From Chelativorans xinjiangensis (GTDB lineage: Bacteria; Pseudomonadota; Alphaproteobacteria; Rhizobiales; Rhizobiaceae), in the NCBI RefSeq assembly GCF_009812055.1, contig NZ_WQNH01000034.1:1-53319 (forward strand): a stretch of DNA of 53,319 nucleotides. The letters run 5' to 3'. The notes under the pieces were generated by a model that did no database searches, had not been told where the DNA came from, and was given only the letters and a program-made list of their open reading frames with translations. Numbering within the stretch: position 1 is the stretch's first letter; every line of letters starts with the position of its first letter. The translations under genes and the position numbers were made by a program. Shown here one piece after another: positions 13,383-50,396 of the stretch.

Positions 13383-13425
13383 TTCAGGCAGGATCCTCTG
13401 GCTTGACCGGCGGATCCATGCCTGG
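13383..13425. repeat. REP-like palindromic element (GGATCC type)
   Basis: CAGGCAGGATCC and GGATCCATGCCTG face each other around TCTGGCTTGACCGGC. The same core, with TC(A/T)GGCTTGACC in the middle, recurs as a perfect hairpin at 31255-31299. This is a dispersed intergenic palindrome. It sits between the tRNA and the AT-rich gene. Confidence 0.55.
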
Positions 13426-14085: not shown

Positions 14086-14192
14086 CTAGGCCAGTTCATC
14101 GATTCATGGAATCGATGAACTGGCCTAACTCTTTGTTTTGTCTTGATTCCGGACGGAAAAACCGGTTTCCACTTTTCCTGGAATTGCTCTAT
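14086..14192 (-). repeat. Mosaic intergenic repeat, copy A
   Basis: Begins with a perfect 19-bp inverted repeat (14087-14105 and 14109-14127) around three bases. The body that follows contains ATTCCGGACGGAAA, CCGGTTTCCACTTTTCC and TGGAATTGCT. The same element recurs at 38719-38815 in this orientation and at 22462-22564 in the opposite one. It resembles the RIME-type elements of Rhizobiales. The far end runs into the neighbouring gene and supplies its stop codon. Confidence 0.8.
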
Positions 14193-15117: not shown

Positions 15118-15205
15118 GGGTTCTCCGGGTCCTTTCATGGTTCGCTCATGGTTCGATTGCGATCGAAATGTCTGTCTCCCGGCAATGGCAGAATGGCCGG
15201 GTCGG

Positions 15206-22461: not shown

Positions 22462-22564
22462 TAGAGCAATTCCAGGAAAAGTGGAAACCGGCTTTCCGTC
22501 CGGAGTTGCGACAAAACAACCACTTAGACCAGTTCATCGATTCCATGAAACGATGACCGGTCTA
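22462..22564 (+). repeat. Mosaic intergenic repeat, copy B
   Basis: Same element as copies A and C in reverse orientation, starting AGAGCAATTCCAGGAAAAG and ending in an imperfect terminal palindrome (TAGACCAGTTCATCG facing CGATGACCGGTCTA, 22525-22564). It fills the middle of the 301-base gap between the divergent dut and prfC genes. The flanks (22358-22461 and 22565-22658) show no gene. Confidence 0.8.
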
Positions 22565-22658
22565 GCTGGCGAGGCCGTCCCAGCCCTCGTCGGCATCGAA
22601 GCTTTCGCTCGTCGGCGAAATGCTGTAAGAGCCCGCGTATCAAAAGGACTCCCGGAAT

Positions 22659-27841: not shown

Positions 27842-27874
27842 GGCGGGATAAGTTAAACAGGGTCAACCGACGTG

Positions 27875-27968
27875 CGTCATCCCGGAAGCTGCAGCGAAGC
27901 GGAGGCTGTCCGGGACGTCGATGTCACGGAATGGGTCCCGGCCCTCACTTCGTTCGGCCGGGATGACG
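27875..27968. repeat. Dispersed intergenic repeat with CGTCATCCCGG ends
   Basis: CGTCATCCCGG (27875-27885) and CCGGGATGACG (27958-27968) are perfect 11-bp inverted ends of a segment rich in CGGAATGGGTCCCGGCC. Segments of this wording are frequent between genes in Rhizobiales. It lies between the convergent ubiB and the EndoQ-helicase fusion and may also end transcription from both sides. Confidence 0.5.
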
Positions 27969-28019: not shown

Positions 28020-31000
28020 TCAGAACAGGCTGAGCTGCCGCGCCCGCGACTTCTGCTTCGTGGCCGCATGGCTCGCCGTCAGCTTATCGGCGATATCGCC
28101 CAGGAAGGGCGAAGGCGGCAGCGCGCGGACCGCGCCGCGCCAGAACCGCTCAGTCGCGCGGGTGAGGAACAGCCTGTCCATGGCCCGCGTCATGGCGACG
28201 TAGAACAAGCGTCTTTCCTCGGCCCGTGCCTTCTCATCCTGTTCCGCGCTCGGTCCCCAGGAAAAAGGCACCAGCCCGTCCTCCATCCCGACGACGAACA
28301 CCACCGGAAACTCCAGCCCCTTGGCCGCATGCATGGTGACGAGCAAGACCCGGTCGGCGCGCGGGTCGCGGAAGTCGGCCTCGGTGGAGAGCGCCACCTG
28401 CTCGCCAAGGAGCGCCGCATCGCCGCCCACCGCCTCGGAAGCGGCGAGTGCCGTGAGCCACCCCCTTGCCTCGGCGAGCGCCGCGGCATCTGCTTCCTCC
28501 TCCTGCCTCGCCGCTTCGGCTGCTGCCGCAAGGCGCGTCGGCAGGTCCATATCGATGTGCGCCTTGCCCTCCAGTGCGCGCAGGATCGCCGCAACGCCCG
28601 CGTGCCCGGCGATCGGGGCGGGTGAGCTTTTCTTGAACGGGATGCCGGTCCGGTCGAACGCTTCTCTCAAGGCCGCCGACTGGGTGTCGGTGCGGTAGAG
28701 CACCGCGAAATCGGCAAAGCCGAGCGGCGCGCAGCCCCGCCGACCCGGCTTGCCCCCGTGCGCGGCAAGCATGTCGTGCCCGCCCAGAAGCTCCTCTATT
28801 GCTGCGGCGACGAAGGCCGCCTCCGCCTCCCCGTTCGCCGCCGTGTGCACGACAATGGGCGTCTCCATCGGCCGGGTCATGCCGTCCGGCGCCGCGCCCA
28901 TAAGCTGGGCGCTAGCGGTGACGATGGTGCCGGTGGAGCGGTAGTTGTGCTTGAGCCGCGCGGTGCGGGCCGAGGGGAAATCGCGTGCGAAGCGCGTGAA
29001 GCAGGTGGCGTCGGCCCCGCGGAAGCCGTAGATCGCCTGGTTGGGATCGCCGATCACGCAGAGATTGCCGCTCGCGCCGGCGAGAAGCTGCAACAGGCGG
29101 TATTGCCGCTCGTCAACGTCCTGGAACTCGTCGGCCACGATATGGGTGAAGCGCTCCCGCCAGCGAGTGGCGATCTCCGCGTTCCCTTCCAAAAGACCCA
29201 CGGCCAACGCCACCAGATCGTCGAAATCGACCCAGTTTCCCTCCCGTCCCAGCCGGTCGAGCGTGGCGCGCGCCTCGGCTTCCTCGCCCTCACCCGCCAC
29301 ACCCGTCCGCTTCATCACGGAAACGGCCTTGACGAACCGCACGGCCCGCCTTTCGCTGACATTCAGCGCGGCGGCGAGTGCCGCCGTCCGCTCCTTTTCG
29401 CCGGCAATACGGAAGTTCAGCGCCAGGCCGAGTTCCCCGCCATGGGCGCGCAGGATGGCAAGGCCCAGCGAATGGAAGCTGTGCACCGCCACGTCCTTCG
29501 CCGCCCCCGGCAGCAGAACGGCAAGGCGCGCCCTGAGCTCCTCCGTCGCCTTGCGCGTGAAGGTGGCGGCAAGGCAGGAGGCGGCCGGCACGCCGCACTC
29601 CACCACCAGATGTGCGATGCGGCGGGTCAGCATGCGCGTCTTGCCCGAGCCGGGGCCGGCGACGACCGTCAGCGGCCCTTCGATCATCGCGGCGGCCTGG
29701 GCCTGGTCGGCGTCAAGCGCCGCCAGCACTCCCTCGCGGCCTGAAGGTGCCGGCGTCGACGGCGCGGGCTGTGACGGCGCCTCTGCCGGCGCCGATTGGT
29801 CCGCCTGCGGCCTTACTGCCCGTTTGCGGCGGCGCACCGGCACGTCGAAGAGAAGGTCGCCCTTGGTGAAGCGGTCGAGCTCGCCCTCCTCGAACAGCCG
29901 GATCACGCCGTATTCGCCGTCATAGCCCGCCTGCCGGATCACCGCGCCGGCGCGCAGCCGCGCCACCGCCTCGCCGAGCAGGGAATCGGCGCGCCCGATA
30001 TCCTCCACCGGCACCTCGGCAAGCACGGAAAGCTCGGGCCCCAGTGCCGCCGTCGCGCGGTCGTAGGCGTGGCCGACGGCCTTCGAGGCAACACCGCTGC
30101 CGAGGATTTCCGAGAGCATCTCCGGCAAAGGCACGAGGCTCGCCACCTCTCCCGCCGTCAGTGGCGGGACGGCCTCGGCCTCGCTGCGGTCGGCCAACAG
30201 CTCAACGCGATGCGCCACGCCCACTGTCACTCGGTTACCGCAGACCGGACAGCGCCCGTCGAGCGCCAGCGTCTCCTTCGGCTCGAGCCGTACCCCGCAG
30301 GCGCGGTGCCCGTCCATGTGGTATTTCCCTTCTTCCGGGAAGAACTCCACCGTGCCTTCGTATCCCTCGCCTGTCTCCAGTGCGCGGCGGATCGCAAAAT
30401 AGTCCGGCTCGCAGGAAAAGCGCGTCGCCTCGCGGCCGAGCTTGCCCGGCGAATGCGCGTCGGAATTCGACGTCAGCCGGTAGCGGTCGAGGAAGGAGAC
30501 GCGCCAGTTCATCGCCGGGTCGGAGGAAAGCCCCGTCTCTACCGCGAAGATGTGGTGGGTGAGATCGCCGTAGCATTCCTCAATGGAATCGAAACCGGAT
30601 TGGGAGCCGAGAGCGGCGAACCACGGCGTCCAGATATGCGCCGGCACAAGATAGGAATCCGGCCCCGATTCCAGCGCGATCTCCAGAAGGTCGCGCGAAT
30701 CGAGCCCCAGGATCGGCCGTCCGTCGGAAGCGATATTGCCGATCCGCCCGAGCTGTGCGGCCAGCCGGTCGGCGGCCGCAAGGTCGGCCGCGTAGATCAG
30801 ATGATGGATCTTCCGTGTCTTCTCGCCCTTCTTGTAGATGGTCGAGATCTCCGTCGACAGCATGAAGCGCACGGGCCGCCGGCAGGCGGGCGGCAGGGTC
30901 TTCTCGATCTCCGCCTCGATCTCGGGCTTCAGGCGGAAAAGACCGCCGCCGTCGGGCACGAGCTTGTCCTTGATCTCGGCAAGCCAGGCCGGATGCACGC

Positions 31001-31127
31001 AGTCCCCGGTGCCGACCACGCCAATCCCCTTGCGCGCCGCCCACCAGGCAAGATGCTCGAGATCGAGGTCCCGGCTGGTGGCGCGGGAATATTTCGAATG
31101 GACGTGCAGGTCGGCATGAAAGGTCAT
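28020..31127 (-). CDS. Endonuclease Q-like PHP nuclease fused to a UvrD/Rep-family DNA helicase
   Basis: One uninterrupted 1035-residue frame joins two DNA-repair modules. Residues 1 to about 430 look like a complete EndoQ-type protein (TIGR00375): metal motif DLHVHSKYS (His8, His10), VVGTGDCVH, STEIS, HHLIYA, SDAHSPGKLG (222-231), then a zinc site with DGHRACGVRL and CPVCGN (Cys277, Cys293, Cys296) and GVAHRVELLADR. A Pro/Ala-rich linker covers about 434-465. The rest is an SF1A helicase: Walker A AGPGSGKT (490-497), DEFQD (666-670), GDPNQAIYGFRGAD (693-706), TMHAAKGLEFP and LFYVAMTRA. EndoQ cuts 5' of hypoxanthine, uracil or abasic sites, so the fusion could cut at deaminated bases and unwind from the nick. 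The ATG at 31127 begins exactly at the PHP motif; its ribosome-binding site is weak. It stands alone. Confidence 0.92.
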   Translation of the reverse strand: MTFHADLHVHSKYSRATSRDLDLEHLAWWAARKGIGVVGTGDCVHPAWLAEIKDKLVPDGGGLFRLKPEIEAEIEKTLPPACRRPVRFMLSTEISTIYKKGEKTRKIHHLIYAADLAAADRLAAQLGRIGNIASDGRPILGLDSRDLLEIALESGPDSYLVPAHIWTPWFAALGSQSGFDSIEECYGDLTHHIFAVETGLSSDPAMNWRVSFLDRYRLTSNSDAHSPGKLGREATRFSCEPDYFAIRRALETGEGYEGTVEFFPEEGKYHMDGHRACGVRLEPKETLALDGRCPVCGNRVTVGVAHRVELLADRSEAEAVPPLTAGEVASLVPLPEMLSEILGSGVASKAVGHAYDRATAALGPELSVLAEVPVEDIGRADSLLGEAVARLRAGAVIRQAGYDGEYGVIRLFEEGELDRFTKGDLLFDVPVRRRKRAVRPQADQSAPAEAPSQPAPSTPAPSGREGVLAALDADQAQAAAMIEGPLTVVAGPGSGKTRMLTRRIAHLVVECGVPAASCLAATFTRKATEELRARLAVLLPGAAKDVAVHSFHSLGLAILRAHGGELGLALNFRIAGEKERTAALAAALNVSERRAVRFVKAVSVMKRTGVAGEGEEAEARATLDRLGREGNWVDFDDLVALAVGLLEGNAEIATRWRERFTHIVADEFQDVDERQYRLLQLLAGASGNLCVIGDPNQAIYGFRGADATCFTRFARDFPSARTARLKHNYRSTGTIVTASAQLMGAAPDGMTRPMETPIVVHTAANGEAEAAFVAAAIEELLGGHDMLAAHGGKPGRRGCAPLGFADFAVLYRTDTQSAALREAFDRTGIPFKKSSPAPIAGHAGVAAILRALEGKAHIDMDLPTRLAAAAEAARQEEEADAAALAEARGWLTALAASEAVGGDAALLGEQVALSTEADFRDPRADRVLLVTMHAAKGLEFPVVFVVGMEDGLVPFSWGPSAEQDEKARAEERRLFYVAMTRAMDRLFLTRATERFWRGAVRALPPSPFLGDIADKLTASHAATKQKSRARQLSLF

Positions 31128-31254
31128 GGAACCCAAGAAATAGCAGCCTCCACGGGGCGGTTCAAAGGCTTGGGCGTGCCATGACGGCATTTCCACAGCC
31201 GCTGGTGCTTCGCGAACGGCCCCTTGCATTGACCGATTTGGAAGTGGGGCCCCG

Positions 31255-31299
31255 TTTCGGCATGGATCCTCAGGCTTGACCCGAGGATCCATGCCGAAA
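31255..31299. repeat. REP-like palindromic element, perfect hairpin
   Basis: Arms at 31255-31271 and 31283-31299 are perfectly complementary over 17 bp around the loop AGGCTTGACCC. The core GGATCCTC(A/T)GGCTTGACC is shared with 13383-13425. It lies upstream of the helicase-fusion gene and after the TPR gene in the 266-base gap 31128-31393, which holds nothing else I can identify. Confidence 0.7.
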
Positions 31300-31393
31300 C
31301 ATCAACGCGTTGCCGACAGTCAAATATTCAGGCCGTTGGTATAAACGAGCGCCGGACTGATACGGCGCATTCCGCCGGTTCGCAGGCCGCGCC

Positions 31394-38718: not shown

Positions 38719-38815
38719 TTAGACCAATTCATCGAATCGATGAATTGGTCTAACTCCTTGTTTTGTCGCAATTCCGGACGGAAAACCGGTTTCCACTTTT
38801 CCTGGAATTGCTATA
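38719..38815 (-). repeat. Mosaic intergenic repeat, copy C
   Basis: Begins with a perfect 17-bp palindrome around a single base (38719-38735 and 38737-38753) and continues with the same body as copy A. It separates the first imelysin gene from the di-heme gene in an otherwise compact operon, and its hairpin could trim or end the upstream message. Confidence 0.8.
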
Positions 38816-43039: not shown

Positions 43040-43756
43040 ATGCCGCAGAAGGCCATGATGCTCGCCGCCGGCCTCGGCACGCGCATGCGGCCGTTGACGG
43101 AGACGACGCCGAAGCCGCTCGTGCCCGTCGCCGGAAAGCCGCTGATCGACTGGGGGCTCGACGCGCTGCAACGGGCGGGCGTGGCGGAAGTCGTGGTGAA
43201 CGTCCATCATCTGCCGGATTTGATGACCGCCCATCTTGGCCGGCGCACCGCCCCCCGGATAACGATCTCCGATGAACGCGACATGCTGCTCGATTCGGGC
43301 GGCGGTGTCGTCAAGGCGCTTCCCCTTCTGGGTACGGAGCCCTTCCTCGTCCTCAACGCTGACACGTTCTGGATCGACCGGGGCGAGCCGAACCTTGGGC
43401 GCCTTGCCCTTGCATGGGACGCCGCCCGCATGAATATACTCATGCTCCTGGCGGACCCGGCTTCCGCCACAGGGCACACGGGCAAGGTGGACTTCACCAT
43501 GGATGGGGAAGGGCGGTTGGAACGCGCGCGCGAGGGGGAGGACGGCTTCATCTATGCCGGCGCCTTCATCGTCCATCCGCGCCTGTTCGCCGGCGCCCCC
43601 GCCGGCCCGCATTCCCTCAACATGCAGTTCGACCAGGCCGCCGCTTCAGGTCGGTTCTTCGGCCTGCCCCTCGACGGCCACTGGATCACCGTCGGCACGC
43701 CTGGGGCGATCGCTCCCGCGGAGGCGGCGCTGCGGCGGCTCGGCGCGGCCCCGTGA
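43040..43756 (+). CDS. Nucleotidyltransferase family protein, MurU-like
   Basis: A 238-residue sugar-1-phosphate nucleotidyltransferase. The N-terminal loop LAAGLGTRMRPLT (8-20) and PKPLVPVAGKPLI bind the nucleotide, VLNADTFW holds the metal-binding Asp, and HWITVGTPG is near the end. It is close to MurU, the N-acetylmuramate-1-phosphate uridylyltransferase of the recycling pathway that bypasses fosfomycin targets. In many relatives it is paired with an AmgK-type kinase and tsaE; here queG stands in that place. The ATG at 43040 follows GCGGGAGA. The stop overlaps addB. Confidence 0.85.
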   Translation: MPQKAMMLAAGLGTRMRPLTETTPKPLVPVAGKPLIDWGLDALQRAGVAEVVVNVHHLPDLMTAHLGRRTAPRITISDERDMLLDSGGGVVKALPLLGTEPFLVLNADTFWIDRGEPNLGRLALAWDAARMNILMLLADPASATGHTGKVDFTMDGEGRLERAREGEDGFIYAGAFIVHPRLFAGAPAGPHSLNMQFDQAAASGRFFGLPLDGHWITVGTPGAIAPAEAALRRLGAAP

Positions 43757-46700
43757 CCGCGGCGCGCACAACGCCGCGCGTCTTCTCCATCCCGCCTGGC
43801 GTGCCCTTCCTGCCGGCGCTTGCCGAGGCGCTTTTGTCCGGTGCGCTGGTGCCGGGCTTTCGCCATGACGGGGATCCGCTGGCGCTCGCCGAGGCAACGG
43901 TCTACCTGCCCACCCGCCGCGCGGCGCGGGGGCTGAGGAGCGTGCTGGTCGAGCGGCTTGGCGGCCGTTCCGCCATCCTGCCTGTCATCCGCCCCCTCGG
44001 CGAGTTCGAGGCCGACCTTGCCGATCTGGACGGCGAGGGCGGGGCCGCCATCCTCGACCATGCGCCGCCAATCGGCGAGCTCGAGCGCGTTCTGCTGCTC
44101 GCGCCGCTGGTACGGGCTTGGAAGGCGCGTGTGCCGGCGCATGTCGCCGCGCTCTTCGAGGAAGGCGTGGTCGTGCCCGCTTCGCTGAGCGACAGCCTGT
44201 GGCTCGCTCGCGACCTTGCCGCCCTGATGGACGAGATCGAGACCGAGGAAGCCGACTGGACGAGGCTCGCGGATCTGGTGCCGGAGGAGCTTGCCGGCTG
44301 GTGGCAGGTTACCCTCGACTTCCTGGACATCGTCACCGCCGCGTGGCCGGACGTGCTGGCAGAGCGCGATCGCTCGAACCCAGCCGCCCACCGCAACGCC
44401 ATGCTGGCGGCCGAAGCCGCGAGGCTGAAGCGCAATCCCGGGAGTGGCCCTGTGATCGCCGCCGGCTCCACCGGCTCGATACCCGCCACGGCTCGGCTGC
44501 TCGCCACGATCGCCCGCCTCGACAACGGCGCCGTGGTTCTGCCCGGCCTCGACCGCTATCTTGACGAGACCTCCTGGCGGGCGGTGGGTGCGAGCGAGGA
44601 GCCCGCGGCCTGCGGCCATCCGCAATTCGGCCTGAAGAAGCTCACCGCCGGCATCGGCATCGCCCGTGCCGACGTGGCCGAGCTTGCCGCGCCATCGCCC
44701 GCGCTCGCCGCGCGGCGCCGGCTGACGAGCGAGGCGCTGCGGCCGGCGGAGACGACCGAGCTGTGGGCCGGCAACAGGGAGAGCGTCGAACAGGCCTTGC
44801 GCGATGGCGCGCTGGCCGGCGTTAGCCTGGTCGAGGCGGCGAACGAGCGCGAGGAGGCGCTTGCCGTTGCCGTGGCGCTGCGCCATGCCGTCGCCCACGA
44901 AGGGAAGACGGCCGCGCTGGTCACGCCCGACCGCGCGCTGGCGCGGCGGGTGGCGGCGGAGCTGCGCCGCTTCGGCATCGAGGCCGACGATTCGGGCGGC
45001 AGCCCGCTTGCCGACAGCGTGCCGGCCACGCTGATGCGGCTCATGCTGGAGGCCGTGTGCCGGCCCGGCGAACCGGTGGCGATCATCGGCCTCCTGAAGC
45101 ATCCGCTCCTGCAGCTCGGCCTGCCGCGTCAACAGGTGCGCGGCGCAGCGGAGCTGATCGATCTGGTGGCGCTGCGCGGCGGCACGGGGCGGCCAGACGC
45201 CGCCGCGCTTTCCGCCCTGTTCGACACGCGTCACGCTGCCCTCGCCGACGCGCGCAAGCCTTTCTGGTTCGGCCGGCTGACCAAGCGGAACCTCACCGAG
45301 GCACGCGAGGTTCTAGCGGCACTCGAAAAGGCGCTGACGCCGCTCACCGCGTTGCGGGGCGAGCGCTTGGTCGGCCTCGCCGCCGCGGCGCGCGCTTCGG
45401 CCGAGGCGCTGGAGGCTCTGGCTCGCGATGCCGACGGCAGCCTGGCCACGCTTTATGGCGGCGAGGCGGGCGAAGCGCTGGCGCGGTTCCTGCGCGAATT
45501 GGTCGACAGCCTTTCCGCGCTGGAGGTGGAGCTTGCCGAGTGGCCGGACGTCTTCGCCGCGCTCATCGCCGGGCAGGTGGTGAAGCCGGCGCACGGCGCC
45601 GACCATCGCGTCGCCATATGGGGCACGCTGGAGGCGCGCCTGCAGAGTGTCGACACGCTGGTGCTGGGCGGCCTCAACGAGGGCACCTGGCCGCAGGTGC
45701 CGGCTTCCGACCGCTTCATGTCGCGCCTCATGAAGGCCGAGCTTTCGCTCGAGCCGCCGGAGCGGCGCATCGGCCTTGCCGCGCACGACTTCATGATGGC
45801 GCTGGGCGCGCCCGAGGTGGTGCTTTCCCGCTCGGCCCGCGCCGGCGATGCGCCTGCCGTCGCCTCGCGCTGGCTGCAGCGGCTGGCGGCCTGCGCCGGG
45901 CCGGCGGAGACAGACGCCATCAAGGCGCGCGGCCGCCGCTTTATCGACTGGGCGCACGCGCTGGAGACCGGCGAGGACGAGCCTTTCGCGCCACGCCCTT
46001 GCCCCAAGCCGCCACTGGAAGCGCGGCCGCAGCGCTTCTCCATCACCGAAATCGAGACGCTGCGCCGCGACCCCTACGCCGTCTACGCAAAGCGCATACT
46101 CGGCCTCTCTCCCCTTGACCCGCTCATCCGCGATCCGGGTGCGGCCGAGCGCGGTACGCTGTTCCACGACATCCTGCAGGCGTTCATCCAGTCGGGCGCC
46201 GACCCCTGCGCCGCCGACGCGTTGGACAACCTGCTTGCGGCCGGCCGGGCGCTTTTCGCCGAAGCCGGCCTTCCTGCCGATGTCGCGGCGGTGTGGTGGC
46301 CGCGCTTCGAGCGCACGGCGCACAACGTCATTGTCTGGGAGCGCGGGCGCACCGAGGGTATCGTCGCCCGCCACGCCGAAATCCGCGCCGAACCGCTCGA
46401 AGTCGGTGCCACCGGCAAGCTGCTTGCCGGCCGCGCCGACCGCATCGACACGCGCGCCGGCAACCGCGCCGACATCATCGATTACAAGACCGGCTCCAAC
46501 CCTTCCAAGGTGCAGGCGCACCGTCTGCTCGCCCCGCAGCTTGCGCTGGAGGCCGCGCTTTTGAGCCGCGGCGCCTTTGCCGGGCTGGGCAACCCCGCTG
46601 CGGACGAACTATGCTATGTGCGGCTGAAGGCGAACGGCGCTGTGGAGCCCGAATCGATCCTGAAGATCAGGGACAGCGAGAAGACGGGCCCAGCACTCGC

Positions 46701-46878
46701 GGAAGAGGCCTGGCAGCGGCTCGAACGGCTGCTCGCCTATTACGACTCTCCGGAAGCCGGCTATCTTTCCCGCGCCCTGCCCTTCAAGGAAGGCGATATG
46801 GAGGGCGACTACGACCATCTGGCGCGTGTCCTGGAGTGGTCGGCGGGAGGTGATACCGGCGAAGAGGAGGCCGAATGA
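43753..46878 (+). CDS. addB: Double-strand break repair protein AddB
   Basis: Partner of AddA in the alphaproteobacterial AddAB helicase-nuclease, which resects broken DNA ends for RecA. The 1041-residue protein has an N-terminal helicase-like region without an intact Walker A motif (IPPGVPFLPAL at about 11-21). The C-terminal PD-(D/E)XK nuclease has the core DIIDYKTGSNPSKVQ. The start is GTG at 43753, overlapping the nucleotidyltransferase stop (GTGA). The stop overlaps the addA ATG by four bases, so the two subunits should be made in equal amounts. Confidence 0.95.
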   Translation: MTAARTTPRVFSIPPGVPFLPALAEALLSGALVPGFRHDGDPLALAEATVYLPTRRAARGLRSVLVERLGGRSAILPVIRPLGEFEADLADLDGEGGAAILDHAPPIGELERVLLLAPLVRAWKARVPAHVAALFEEGVVVPASLSDSLWLARDLAALMDEIETEEADWTRLADLVPEELAGWWQVTLDFLDIVTAAWPDVLAERDRSNPAAHRNAMLAAEAARLKRNPGSGPVIAAGSTGSIPATARLLATIARLDNGAVVLPGLDRYLDETSWRAVGASEEPAACGHPQFGLKKLTAGIGIARADVAELAAPSPALAARRRLTSEALRPAETTELWAGNRESVEQALRDGALAGVSLVEAANEREEALAVAVALRHAVAHEGKTAALVTPDRALARRVAAELRRFGIEADDSGGSPLADSVPATLMRLMLEAVCRPGEPVAIIGLLKHPLLQLGLPRQQVRGAAELIDLVALRGGTGRPDAAALSALFDTRHAALADARKPFWFGRLTKRNLTEAREVLAALEKALTPLTALRGERLVGLAAAARASAEALEALARDADGSLATLYGGEAGEALARFLRELVDSLSALEVELAEWPDVFAALIAGQVVKPAHGADHRVAIWGTLEARLQSVDTLVLGGLNEGTWPQVPASDRFMSRLMKAELSLEPPERRIGLAAHDFMMALGAPEVVLSRSARAGDAPAVASRWLQRLAACAGPAETDAIKARGRRFIDWAHALETGEDEPFAPRPCPKPPLEARPQRFSITEIETLRRDPYAVYAKRILGLSPLDPLIRDPGAAERGTLFHDILQAFIQSGADPCAADALDNLLAAGRALFAEAGLPADVAAVWWPRFERTAHNVIVWERGRTEGIVARHAEIRAEPLEVGATGKLLAGRADRIDTRAGNRADIIDYKTGSNPSKVQAHRLLAPQLALEAALLSRGAFAGLGNPAADELCYVRLKANGAVEPESILKIRDSEKTGPALAEEAWQRLERLLAYYDSPEAGYLSRALPFKEGDMEGDYDHLARVLEWSAGGDTGEEEAE

Positions 46879-49800
46879 AAAAGCCCCTCCGCATCCCCGA
46901 AGATACGCTGAAGAACCAGGCTCTCGCCTCAGACCCAGCGCTCTCGGCCTGGGTGTCGGCCCATGCCGGCTCGGGCAAGACGCATGTGCTGGCAAGCCGC
47001 GTCATCCGCCTTCTCCTGAAGGGCACGGACCCCTCGAAGATCCTCTGCCTCACCTATACGCGCGCCGCCGCCGCCAACATGGCCAACCGGGTGTTCGAAA
47101 AGCTTGCCGGCTGGAGCCTGCTGCCGGACGAGAAGCTTGCCGAGGAGATCGCCGGCCTCGAAGGCCGCAGGCCGGGACCGGATAAGCTGCGCCGCGCGCG
47201 CCAGCTCTTCGCTCGTGCGCTGGAAACGCCGGGCGGCCTGAAGATCCAGACGATCCACGCCTTCTGCGAGGCGATCCTGCACCAGTTCCCGCTGGAGGCG
47301 AACATCGCCGGCCATTTCGAGCTCTTGGATGCGCAGATGGAAGAAGCGCTGTTCGGCGAGGCGCGGCGCGACCTTCTGACCGCCGTCGCCGCCGTGGGTG
47401 ATGGCCCGATGGCGGAGGCCTTCGCGCAGGTTCTGGAGCGCGGCGGCGAGGCCGGCCTGCAGCGGCTGCTCACCGAGATTGTGGCGAAACGCGAGGAGCT
47501 GCGCCTTTTCATCGATGCCACAACAGACGGCGTCTCCTGTCTGCCTGAGCTTCTCGCCGAATTCGGTTTCGCCGAAGGCGAGACCATCGAAAACCTTGCC
47601 GCCTCGGCATGGCCCGTGCCCGGCTTCGATCCGGCGGAATATGGTCGCTTTGTCGCCGCCGCCGAGGAGACGAACGCGCGCTCGGTGCTGAAAAACATCG
47701 TCCCCACCGCCTCGCTGGGCTTTGCGGAGGTCGATCCCGTGCGCCGTCTGGAACTGCTGGCCGAGGGCTTCCTCAAGGCGGGCGGCGATCCCTACGGAGA
47801 GAGCACCTTCAGGGCGGCGCTGAAGGACCGCTTGCCCGGCCTCTACGAGCGCTATCGGGCGGCGGCGGCCTTCCTGCAGCGGGCCGCCGACCGGCTGGCG
47901 CTCTATCGTATGCTGGAGGCGACAAGCGCTGCGCTCGGCATCGCCGATGCGCTGATTTCCCGCTACGAGCGGCTGAAGCGGGCGCGCGGCTTCCTCGATT
48001 TCAGCGACCTCATCATGCGCACCGTGCGGCTTCTCGCCCGCCAGGACGTCGGCCCCTGGGTGCAGTACAAACTCGACCGCGGCATCGACCATATCCTGAT
48101 CGACGAGGCGCAGGACACGAGCCCGCCTCAATGGCAGATCGTGCGGCAACTCGCGGAAGAGTTCTTTGCCGGCGAAGGATCGCGCGCGGGAGTGGAACGC
48201 ACCATTTTCGCCGTCGGCGACGAGAAGCAGTCGATCTACTCCTTCCAGGGTGCCGAGCCTGCCGCCTTCGCCGAGAGCGGCGCCGCCTTCGACAAGCGCG
48301 TTCCGCAAGGCGGCGGGCGCTTTGCGAAGGTGCGGCTGAAGCGCTCCTTCCGCTCTACCTATGACGTTCTGCGGGCGGTCGACCTGGTGTTTTCCCGCGA
48401 AGAGGCGCGCCGCGGCCTCACCCGCGATCCCGAGCTGATCGAGCATGAAGCCGTCCGCGAGAACGCGCCCGGCTATGTGGAGGTCTGGTCTCCGCTGAGC
48501 CCGCAGGTCGTGGCGGAGCCGGACGACTGGACGCTGGCCGTAGACCATGCCTCCGCCCCCGCAGCAAGGCTCGCCGAGGTGATCGCCGACAAGATCGAGC
48601 GCTGGCTGAAGGACGGCGAGATCCTGGAAGGGCAGGGCCGGCGCCTGCGGCCAGGCGACATCATGGTCCTGGTCAGGAAGCGCGACCGCTTCGTCCATGC
48701 GCTGTCGCGCAGCCTGAAAAACCGCTATATCTCCGTGGCCGGCGCCGACCGCCTGCGCCTGACGGCCCATATCGCCGTCAAGGACCTGACGGCGCTCGGC
48801 CGCTTTCTCCTGCAGCCGCACGACGACCTGTCGCTGGCGGCGGTACTCAAGAGCCCGCTCTTCGGGCTCGACGAGGAGGCGCTGTTCCGTCTCGCCTGGC
48901 CGCGCGCCGACGGGGTCTCTCTGTTCGCCGCGCTGCGCGAGAAGGCGAAGGCCGATGGCGCGCTGGGGGCGGTCCTCGAGACGCTGGTCGACTGGCAGGC
49001 GCAAGCCGCCTTCAAGCCGGTCTTCGAATTCTATGCCGGCGTGCTCGCCGGCACGCCCGAGCGCGAGGGCGTGCGCAGCCGCTTCGTCGGCCGGCTGGGG
49101 CACGAGGCGCACGATATCCTGGACGAGTTCCTTTCCTTCTGCCTGACAGGCGAGAGGACGGGCCTGGTCGGCCTGGAGGCGTTCTTGGCGACGCTGGAGG
49201 GCGCCGCCCCCGAGATCAAGCGCGAGATGGACCAGTCGCGCGACGAAATCCGTATCATGACGGTGCACGCGGCCAAGGGGCTGGAGGCGCCGGTAGTCTT
49301 TCTCGTCGACCCCGGCAGCGCGCCGGTCAGCAACAGCCACCTGCCGATACTCATGCCTTTCCCGATGCGGGAGGCCCGGCCGGTCACCGGCTATCTGTGG
49401 CGTCAGGGCAAGGATCTTTCCAATTCGCTTGCCCGCCGTTTCGAGGCGGAGGCGCGGGAGAAGGCGGAGGACGAGTACCGCCGCCTGCTCTATGTCGGCA
49501 TGACGCGGGCCGAGGACCGGCTGATCGTCTGCGGCTATCATGGCGCGCGGCCCGCTCCCGCCACCTGGCAGACGCTCGTGCGCGATGCCTTTGCCGGCCA
49601 GGCGGAGACCGAGGAACGGGACGATCCGAAGGATTGCGCGCCGGTGCTGCGCTTTCGCGTCACGCCGCTTTCAGAGGCGGGGCCGGTGGAGGCCGTTGCC
49701 GCGCCCGAAGCGACGGGCGAGCCCTTGCCGCCGGAAATGAGACGGCCGTTGCCGCCCCCGCCCGCACTGCCGCGCCCGCTGTCGCCGTCGGGGGCCGCCG

Positions 49801-50396
49801 CGTTGATCGACGGCGGCTTTGAGATAACTCCCTCGCCGCGCTCGCCCGTCCTCGACGGCTCGGAAAGGCCGGGCCTTGCCCTGGAGCGGGGCAATGCGGT
49901 GCATCGCCTGCTGCAGGTCCTGCCCGACCTGCCACCCGCCGAGCGCGAAACGGCCGCCCGCCGCTATCTGGAGCGCCTCGGCGCCGGCTGGCCCGAGGGA
50001 GAGGCGGAAGGCGCCCTCGGCTCCGTCCTGACGATCCTGCGGGATGCCCGCTTTGCGCCGCTTTTCGCCCCCGCTTCACGGGCCGAGGTCTCCGTGATGG
50101 GTGAACTGACCATCGGCGGAGCGCGCCGCGCCGTCGCCGGCAAGGTCGACCGCCTGGCGGTGACGGAGGAGGCGGTGCTCATCGTCGACTATAAGACCAA
50201 CCGTCCGGCACCCGCCGCTCCTGCCGAGGTGCCGCTGCCCTATGTGGCCCAGCTTGCGCTCTACGCGGAGCTTTTGAAGCCGCTTTATCCGGGCCGCCAT
50301 GTCTCCGCCGCGCTGCTTTTCACCGAGGTTCCGCGCCTTCTCCCCGTGAGCGAGTCGGACATGGCCGCCGCCCTTGCCCGACTCACAAGGGCGTGA
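46875..50396 (+). CDS. addA: Double-strand break repair helicase AddA
   Basis: The 1173-residue UvrD-like motor and nuclease subunit of AddAB. Walker A is AHAGSGKT (29-36). IDEAQDTSPPQW carries motif II, GDEKQSIYSFQGAEP motif III, MTVHAAKGLEAPVVF motif V and RRLLYVGMTRAEDRL motif VI. The C-terminal nuclease core is LIVDYKTNRP, so both subunits keep their catalytic Asp and Lys. The gene is followed by trxA after 75 bases. The addB-addA-trxA order is common in Hyphomicrobiales. Confidence 0.97.
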   Translation: MKKPLRIPEDTLKNQALASDPALSAWVSAHAGSGKTHVLASRVIRLLLKGTDPSKILCLTYTRAAAANMANRVFEKLAGWSLLPDEKLAEEIAGLEGRRPGPDKLRRARQLFARALETPGGLKIQTIHAFCEAILHQFPLEANIAGHFELLDAQMEEALFGEARRDLLTAVAAVGDGPMAEAFAQVLERGGEAGLQRLLTEIVAKREELRLFIDATTDGVSCLPELLAEFGFAEGETIENLAASAWPVPGFDPAEYGRFVAAAEETNARSVLKNIVPTASLGFAEVDPVRRLELLAEGFLKAGGDPYGESTFRAALKDRLPGLYERYRAAAAFLQRAADRLALYRMLEATSAALGIADALISRYERLKRARGFLDFSDLIMRTVRLLARQDVGPWVQYKLDRGIDHILIDEAQDTSPPQWQIVRQLAEEFFAGEGSRAGVERTIFAVGDEKQSIYSFQGAEPAAFAESGAAFDKRVPQGGGRFAKVRLKRSFRSTYDVLRAVDLVFSREEARRGLTRDPELIEHEAVRENAPGYVEVWSPLSPQVVAEPDDWTLAVDHASAPAARLAEVIADKIERWLKDGEILEGQGRRLRPGDIMVLVRKRDRFVHALSRSLKNRYISVAGADRLRLTAHIAVKDLTALGRFLLQPHDDLSLAAVLKSPLFGLDEEALFRLAWPRADGVSLFAALREKAKADGALGAVLETLVDWQAQAAFKPVFEFYAGVLAGTPEREGVRSRFVGRLGHEAHDILDEFLSFCLTGERTGLVGLEAFLATLEGAAPEIKREMDQSRDEIRIMTVHAAKGLEAPVVFLVDPGSAPVSNSHLPILMPFPMREARPVTGYLWRQGKDLSNSLARRFEAEAREKAEDEYRRLLYVGMTRAEDRLIVCGYHGARPAPATWQTLVRDAFAGQAETEERDDPKDCAPVLRFRVTPLSEAGPVEAVAAPEATGEPLPPEMRRPLPPPPALPRPLSPSGAAALIDGGFEITPSPRSPVLDGSERPGLALERGNAVHRLLQVLPDLPPAERETAARRYLERLGAGWPEGEAEGALGSVLTILRDARFAPLFAPASRAEVSVMGELTIGGARRAVAGKVDRLAVTEEAVLIVDYKTNRPAPAAPAEVPLPYVAQLALYAELLKPLYPGRHVSAALLFTEVPRLLPVSESDMAAALARLTRA

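Follow-up and report, generated by a model that had tools for sequence, protein, structure and literature searches.

A single open reading frame on a contig of Chelativorans xinjiangensis (NZ_WQNH01000034.1, assembly GCF_009812055.1) joins an EndoQ-like nuclease to a UvrD-type helicase in one protein of 1035 residues. The whole 53,319 nt stretch analysed is called the window here, and the genome it comes from G000. The fusion gene occupies 28020..31127 on the minus strand and is identified by its open frame, by matches to Pfam and NCBIfam models, and by purifying selection relative to the copy in a congener (G009). The mechanically called frame extends to 31292, and 31127 is taken as the likely start because the G009 copy (L039) begins at the same Met. 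A sequence-only reading of the window had described one uninterrupted frame in which both halves keep their key residues, and this was borne out: PHP ligands, a CPVCG knuckle, the linker, and the helicase motifs are all in place. All parts lie on the minus strand. The nuclease half covers residues 1-430 (29838..31127; a PHP domain, a zinc site, and a C-terminal helical part) and is followed by a Pro/Ala-rich linker at about residues 432-464 (29736..29834), read from the sequence, with a predicted local distance difference test score (pLDDT) below 50 over residues 424-451. The UvrD/PcrA-like helicase half, with an apparently shortened 2B region, spans residues 465-1035 (28023..29735) and ends in QLSLF (residues 1031-1035, 28023..28037). 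Between G000 and G009, the nuclease half has a nonsynonymous divergence (dN) of 0.053 and a synonymous divergence (dS) of 0.575, and the helicase half has 0.170 and 0.817; with dN/dS of about 0.09 and 0.21, respectively, both halves are under selection.

The nuclease half resembles EndoQ by sequence, by individual residues, and by structure. Pfam at E 0.001 detects the UvrD helicase in the fusion and not the PHP domain. The NCBIfam model TIGR00375 matches residues 99-409 (E 6.2e-43), and control matches in Methanosarcina acetivorans and Bacillus subtilis suggest that this family includes EndoQ. In a phmmer search of solved structures, residues 3-414 pair with residues 3-385 of Pyrococcus furiosus EndoQ (PfuEndoQ; E 1.5e-48) at about 35% identity (132 of 377 aligned positions). 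Residue roles were taken from the accessible portions of two EndoQ papers (PMC8307549; PMC4357722): PfuEndoQ D6, H8, H10, E76, H84, H139, E167, G169, S171, and the S-D-A of the SDAH motif all have identical counterparts in the window protein, and the His of SDAH is H225, so that the catalytic ligands (E76, H84, H139) and the PHP residues (D6, H8, H10, SDAH) are kept. At one of these positions, H8, relatives at four loci have Gln (L042, L043, L066, L067; 2 of 19 rows in one alignment, 3 of 48 in another). The zinc site (residues 274-296, 30240..30308, minus strand) was located by alignment: PfuEndoQ C249, C252, C268, and C271 fall on His274, Cys277, Cys293, and Cys296, with CPVCG kept. The first ligand is His in 47 of 48 fusions and Cys in the other, which makes this a site of three cysteines and a histidine rather than four cysteines, and because of His274 the nuclease half is classed as EndoQ-like rather than as EndoQ. 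Relative to PfuEndoQ, insertions of 17 and 7 residues flank the catalytic glutamate. Structure comparison found a whole-length EndoQ fold, co-linear with PfuEndoQ over the entire nuclease chain; the sequence-only reading had named a fold other than EndoQ as its refutation, and the comparison did not bring one out. An EndoQ fold and a UvrD fold on one chain are supported.

In the helicase half, motifs I, Ia, II, III, IV, V, and VI are present between residues 490 and 982, together with two motor domains. Residues 465-848 and 921-1021 pair with a PcrA structure in phmmer, and 531 residues align structurally to Deinococcus radiodurans UvrD, covering most of this half. The span from NYRS to AKGLE is 207 residues in the fusion (728 to 935), and the UvrD-like frame of the same genome has 272 (429 to 701); by this difference of 65 residues the 2B region appears shorter in the fusion. 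A literal GIG between motifs IVa and V is missing from all 48 fusions; its loss was dropped as proof of a missing 2B since the genome's own UvrD-like frame also lacks it. Deletion of 2B activates the Rep monomer, according to an excerpt of PMC13238157, and by analogy the apparently shorter 2B region may mean a more weakly autoinhibited motor.

The C-terminal QLSLF is a predicted beta-clamp-binding tag, and a family-wide one, as indicated by family counts and by the published consensus: the commonest clamp-binding motif is given as QL[S/D]LF, more generally QxxLF, in the available part of PMC12309361. Two patterns were counted within the last eight residues, a loose one (Q-[LMFIV]-x-[LFM]-[FLIMVYW]) and a strict one (QL/M-x-LF). 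The count covered 78 distinct fusions with a frame that terminates within the fetched DNA, with two same-genome duplicates merged and L078, whose frame breaks inside the helicase, kept; seven of the 80 loci in which the frame runs into the end of a contig (L063, L070, L071, L077, L130, L131, L133) and a broken copy in G006 were left out. The loose motif is present in 61 of the 78 and the strict motif in 37. For comparison, 3 of 580 neighbouring frames of at least 150 residues (mechanical calls, some of them spurious) carry the motif, and two of these three are the split-off helicases of L097 and L101. The tag sits at the helicase end and goes with the helicase when the gene is split, and 0 of 12 EndoQ frames without a helicase have it within their last 20 residues. 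In the structure model, QLSLF lies in a low-confidence tail.

We read the fusion, with moderate confidence and from its conserved motifs, as a putative repair enzyme, tethered to the clamp, that nicks and unwinds DNA at uracil, hypoxanthine, or abasic sites and so acts as a self-contained starter of nucleotide-incision repair. First, the C-terminal QLSLF would tether the protein to the beta sliding clamp. Second, as the conserved residues suggest, the EndoQ half would flip a damaged nucleotide (uracil, hypoxanthine, or abasic) into its pocket and nick 5′ of the lesion, leaving a 3′-OH and a lesion-bearing 5′-phosphate. Nicking 5′ of such lesions has reportedly been shown for archaeal and Bacillus pumilus EndoQ. 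Third, the UvrD half would load at the nick on the intact strand, move 3′ to 5′, and peel off the lesion-bearing strand as a 5′ flap; a polymerase, flap removal, and a ligase could then complete repair. The products proposed here are those described for EndoQ in the accessible text of PMC4357722 (3′-OH and 5′-phosphate), and a passage of a review (PMC8438529) has the archaeal EndoQ nick processed by helicase, FEN1, polymerase, and ligase. An alternative is that lesion specificity in the nuclease half has been lost or has moved to other substrates (for example, blocked ends, ribonucleotides, or branched DNA), which would leave a nick-and-unwind nuclease that is not a uracil or hypoxanthine repair enzyme. 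The identity of about 35% to PfuEndoQ, the His in place of a zinc Cys, the two insertions, and a TIGR00375 score below the cut-off all speak for such a shift, but the gate residues H164, G199, and S201 (PfuEndoQ H139, G169, S171) are invariant in 48 of 48 fusions, and we consider this alternative unlikely.

The fusion is widespread. Relatives were collected in one contig scan with one genome per species, and the best 80 of at least 586 confirmed stretches were analysed. The helicase is in the same frame in 73 of these best 80 (some cut by a contig end), a share that is biased upward because the 80 are those nearest to the window protein. Among the others, no helicase was found in the fetched DNA at L061, L090, L112, and L117, the helicase is the next frame at L097 and L101, and the L070 frame is truncated where its contig ends. 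Judged by record titles, the fused relatives come from about eleven phyla, many of them as metagenome-assembled genomes: Pseudomonadota, Binatia, Acidobacteriota, Actinomycetes, Gastranaerophilales, Elusimicrobiota, Poribacteria, Planctomycetota, Opitutae, Myxococcales, and Chloroflexi. The rarity implied by the sequence-only reading did not hold up against this spread. In evenly drawn samples, 7 of the 385 class genomes (G251 doubtful) and 18 of the 398 phylum genomes have a TIGR00375 match. Twenty regions were fetched: 12 hold intact fusions, 6 hold EndoQ without a helicase (G495, G452, G467, G458, G455, G585), one is broken (G006), and one, G251, has no match to the window's EndoQ half. The G251 match was weak (E 6.6e-4) and probably reflects another PHP protein; it was kept in the class test. 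A tree of the N-terminal domain with 99 rows implies at least eight changes between fused and non-fused states. PfuEndoQ was tried as its root and set aside, its branch being far too long for a reliable root, and gain and loss of the fusion are therefore not polarised. In one non-fused relative, Devosia nitrariae (L061:7001-8332), the EndoQ frame has 444 residues, shares 84% identity with the window's, and terminates shortly after entering the linker; the roughly 7 kb fetched to either side held no match to the helicase, and a loss of the helicase half is likely. No description of an EndoQ-UvrD fusion was found in the open-licence PubMed Central (PMC) literature searched; domain structures of bacterial EndoQ homologues are drawn in Figure 9A of PMC4357722.

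A patchy distribution raises the question of defence: the protein might cut deaminated or modified invader DNA (uracil-DNA phages, incoming DNA) while its helicase unwinds the nicked foreign DNA, a Gabija-like pair on one chain. The patchy presence of the family, in 3 of 61 genomes searched (G000 included) and in 18 of 398 in the phylum sample, and its repeated decay fit defence genes; the helicase half matches PADLOC models of GajB (best E 9.5e-71); and a review, in the portion available, raises the possibility that Bacillus EndoQ joins antiviral defence (PMC8307549). Against this, the PADLOC matches listed (25 of 51) all fall on the helicase half and reflect the UvrD family, the gene lies in a gene order shared within the genus and not in an island, and neighbour families are shared by at most 5 of the 80 loci. 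The recurrent neighbours form three clusters of 5 loci each and are either generic families or frames antisense to the fusion. Carriage by plasmids or phages was also rejected, as the annotated collections (72,556 plasmid and 50,697 phage records) contained no match to the EndoQ half at E 1e-5. Together with the clamp tag, which suits replication-linked repair, these points make a defence role improbable, slightly more so than a shifted specificity.

Within the genus (16 genomes, G000 included), the fusion is found at one site, between a TPR gene and ubiB, a position that the window has in common with three congeners. TIGR00375 matches in the wider set of 61 genomes are confined to three members of the genus: G000, G009, which has an intact fusion at this site, and G006, whose copy there is frameshifted and spread over different frames with stops. 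A fourth genome, G001, keeps a 366-base remnant at the same site with only the two ends of the gene, and the fusion was found in none of the remaining 12 by either search. In a tree built from four flanking proteins, one of which occurs in 13 of the 16 genomes, the four group as (G009,(G006,(G000,G001))).

The sequence-only reading had placed the fusion beside or instead of base excision repair, and of the two it is beside that stands. Genes of the uracil-DNA glycosylase (UDG) superfamily occur in all 16 genus genomes, three in G000 and G009 and four or five in the rest. It had also wanted the overlap with ung and nfi surveyed: G000 has neither family-1 Ung (TIGR00628) nor EndoV (PF04493), but no genome of the 16 gave a match to either. 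Ung cannot explain the pattern of the fusion, since family-1 Ung was found in 0 of 16, and replacement of Ung by the fusion was rejected on that ground. The gene that does vary with the fusion is UdgX (TIGR03914 above cut-off), which is present in 14 of the 16 genomes: the only two with an intact fusion, G000 and G009, are the only two without it (Fisher p 0.008). Both G006, with the frameshifted fusion, and G001, with the deletion remnant, have UdgX; in G001, one stop interrupts the opening codons of the match, ahead of a 205-residue frame that is intact. GEQPG and KRRIH are found in representative sequences and are the UdgX signature according to a portion of PMC10359453, where the discoverers describe an enzyme acting on uracil in DNA and call its physiological role largely unknown. 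In G002, G004, G006, and G008, UdgX is flanked by a lysR-like gene and glxK (both named by eye). This native site consists of 30 nt in G009 and 118 nt in G001, neither holding UdgX, and in G001 the gene is at a new place (L222:8143-8757), about 4 kb from a LigD-type polymerase-like gene identified by eye. By parsimony, UdgX was lost twice at its native site in fusion-bearing lineages; in one sister UdgX came back at another place and the fusion was lost, and in another UdgX persisted as the fusion decayed. As a separate observation, UdgX lies in 476-residue frames in the congeners G008 and G002 (L197:121-1548, L199:168-1595), and in the former it is joined in one frame to a TIGR03915 domain (a putative DNA repair protein).

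Several observations weigh against the proposed repair role and its link to UdgX. The TIGR00375 score of the EndoQ half is 147.6 bits, below the curated cut-off of 326.6, a cut-off reached by 0 of 385 class-sample and 0 of 398 phylum-sample genomes. H8, a PHP ligand, is replaced by Gln in 3 of 48 fusions and hence not absolute, and the loose clamp motif is missing from 17 of 78. The fusion is also dispensable in the genus, being broken in G006 and G001 and not found in 12 others. With regard to UdgX, the reciprocity comprises two independent pairs that both point the expected way (sign test p 0.5), and in G000 the native site coincides with the end of a contig, which stops 173 nt beyond lysR. 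Of this stretch, the first 93 nt are a dispersed repeat also there in G001 and the remaining 80 nt have no match to UdgX or glxK; a search of the whole G000 genome found no UdgX. In the wider samples, where kinship is uncorrected, UdgX occurs in 0 of 18 TIGR00375-positive genomes of the phylum versus 77 of 380 others (Fisher p 0.03) and in 0 of 7 of the class versus 33 of 378 others (p 1.0). The reciprocity between fusion and UdgX is accordingly a lead rather than proof. That the halves work separately, with fusion serving co-expression only and the UdgX pattern due to chance, is very unlikely: helicase-less EndoQ frames (L061, L090, L112, L117, and six fetched phylum-sample genomes), the at least eight changes on the N-domain tree, and the two contrasts for UdgX lend it something, but the fused form dominates among the 80 nearest relatives across many phyla and the clamp tag stays with the helicase when the gene is split.

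Two elements go beyond the starting observation: the C-terminal clamp motif and the reciprocal pattern with UdgX. A broader and tentative suggestion, for which the odds are less than even, is that EndoQ-UvrD, by holding on to the sliding clamp, nicking 5′ of deaminated bases, and unwinding the damaged strand, is a widespread and overlooked glycosylase-free machine for uracil and hypoxanthine repair at the replication fork in many phyla, standing in for UdgX in some lineages such that one of the two is kept at a time. No paper with both UdgX and EndoQ was found in the open-licence PMC search. If the fusion works as proposed, glycosylase-free incision repair of deaminated bases would be a common bacterial pathway, with nuclease, motor, and clamp tag in one chain, and the UdgX pattern, if it holds, would offer a handle on the physiological role of UdgX.

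The sequence-only reading had the gene standing alone between repeats, which is right on one side: a palindrome with 21-nt arms, found by inverted-repeat search, lies upstream at 31254..31300 (unstranded), while the same search for inverted repeats of at least 12 came up empty on the other flank, where shorter palindromic sequence was all that could be made out by eye (27870-27960). A related copy of the upstream palindrome, with 3 mismatches in the core, lies at 13391, and it is probably a dispersed repeat or terminator with no part in the mechanism. A dispersed intergenic repeat of about 90-105 nt, with an internal palindrome, occurs at 14086-14191, 22462-22565, and 38728-38815, and a copy about 80% alike ends the G000 contig (C88) beside the native UdgX site. 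The SOS box consensus is GTTC-N7-GTTC; its sole match in the window is at 15140 (1.24 expected by chance), none is near the fusion gene, and SOS control was rejected for that reason. An AddB/AddA-like pair (names inferred) lies on the plus strand at 43414-46878 and 46875-50396, a PDDEXK nuclease protein followed by a UvrD-PDDEXK helicase-nuclease, and the helicase DNA of the fusion forms inverted repeats with the second of these genes (28289-28342/49255-49308 and 29616-29653/46966-47003).

Among known systems, the closest to the nuclease half is EndoQ itself (Pyrococcus furiosus, 5zb8 and 7k30; Thermococcus, Methanosarcina, Bacillus pumilus), with which it shares the fold, the PHP ligands, E76/H84/H139, G169/S171, and CPxCG; unlike EndoQ, the fusion has a helicase on its chain, a His for one zinc Cys, and two insertions near the catalytic glutamate. 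Archaeal EndoQ binds PCNA through a C-terminal motif, and a beta-clamp consensus is noted in the C-terminal region of bacterial homologues, in the part of PMC4858679 available; the C-terminus of the fusion is likewise a clamp motif, for the beta clamp, but it sits on the helicase end, and helicase-less EndoQ frames (0 of 12) carry none. In archaea, helicase, FEN1, and PCNA are proposed as separate partners, whereas the fusion has helicase and clamp tag on the nuclease's own chain. Its motifs and helicase fold are those of the UvrD/PcrA/Rep SF1A helicases, and unlike the genome's own UvrD-like frame, which has a Tudor-type tail by eye, it terminates in QLSLF. Gabija offers a UvrD-like helicase in GajB, but no GajA lies beside the fusion (the neighbours are a TPR protein and UbiB) and the nuclease is of the PHP/EndoQ type on the same chain. 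Finally, UdgX and the fusion are both directed at uracil (as predicted, in the case of the fusion), but UdgX is an unrelated glycosylase that cross-links itself to the abasic site.
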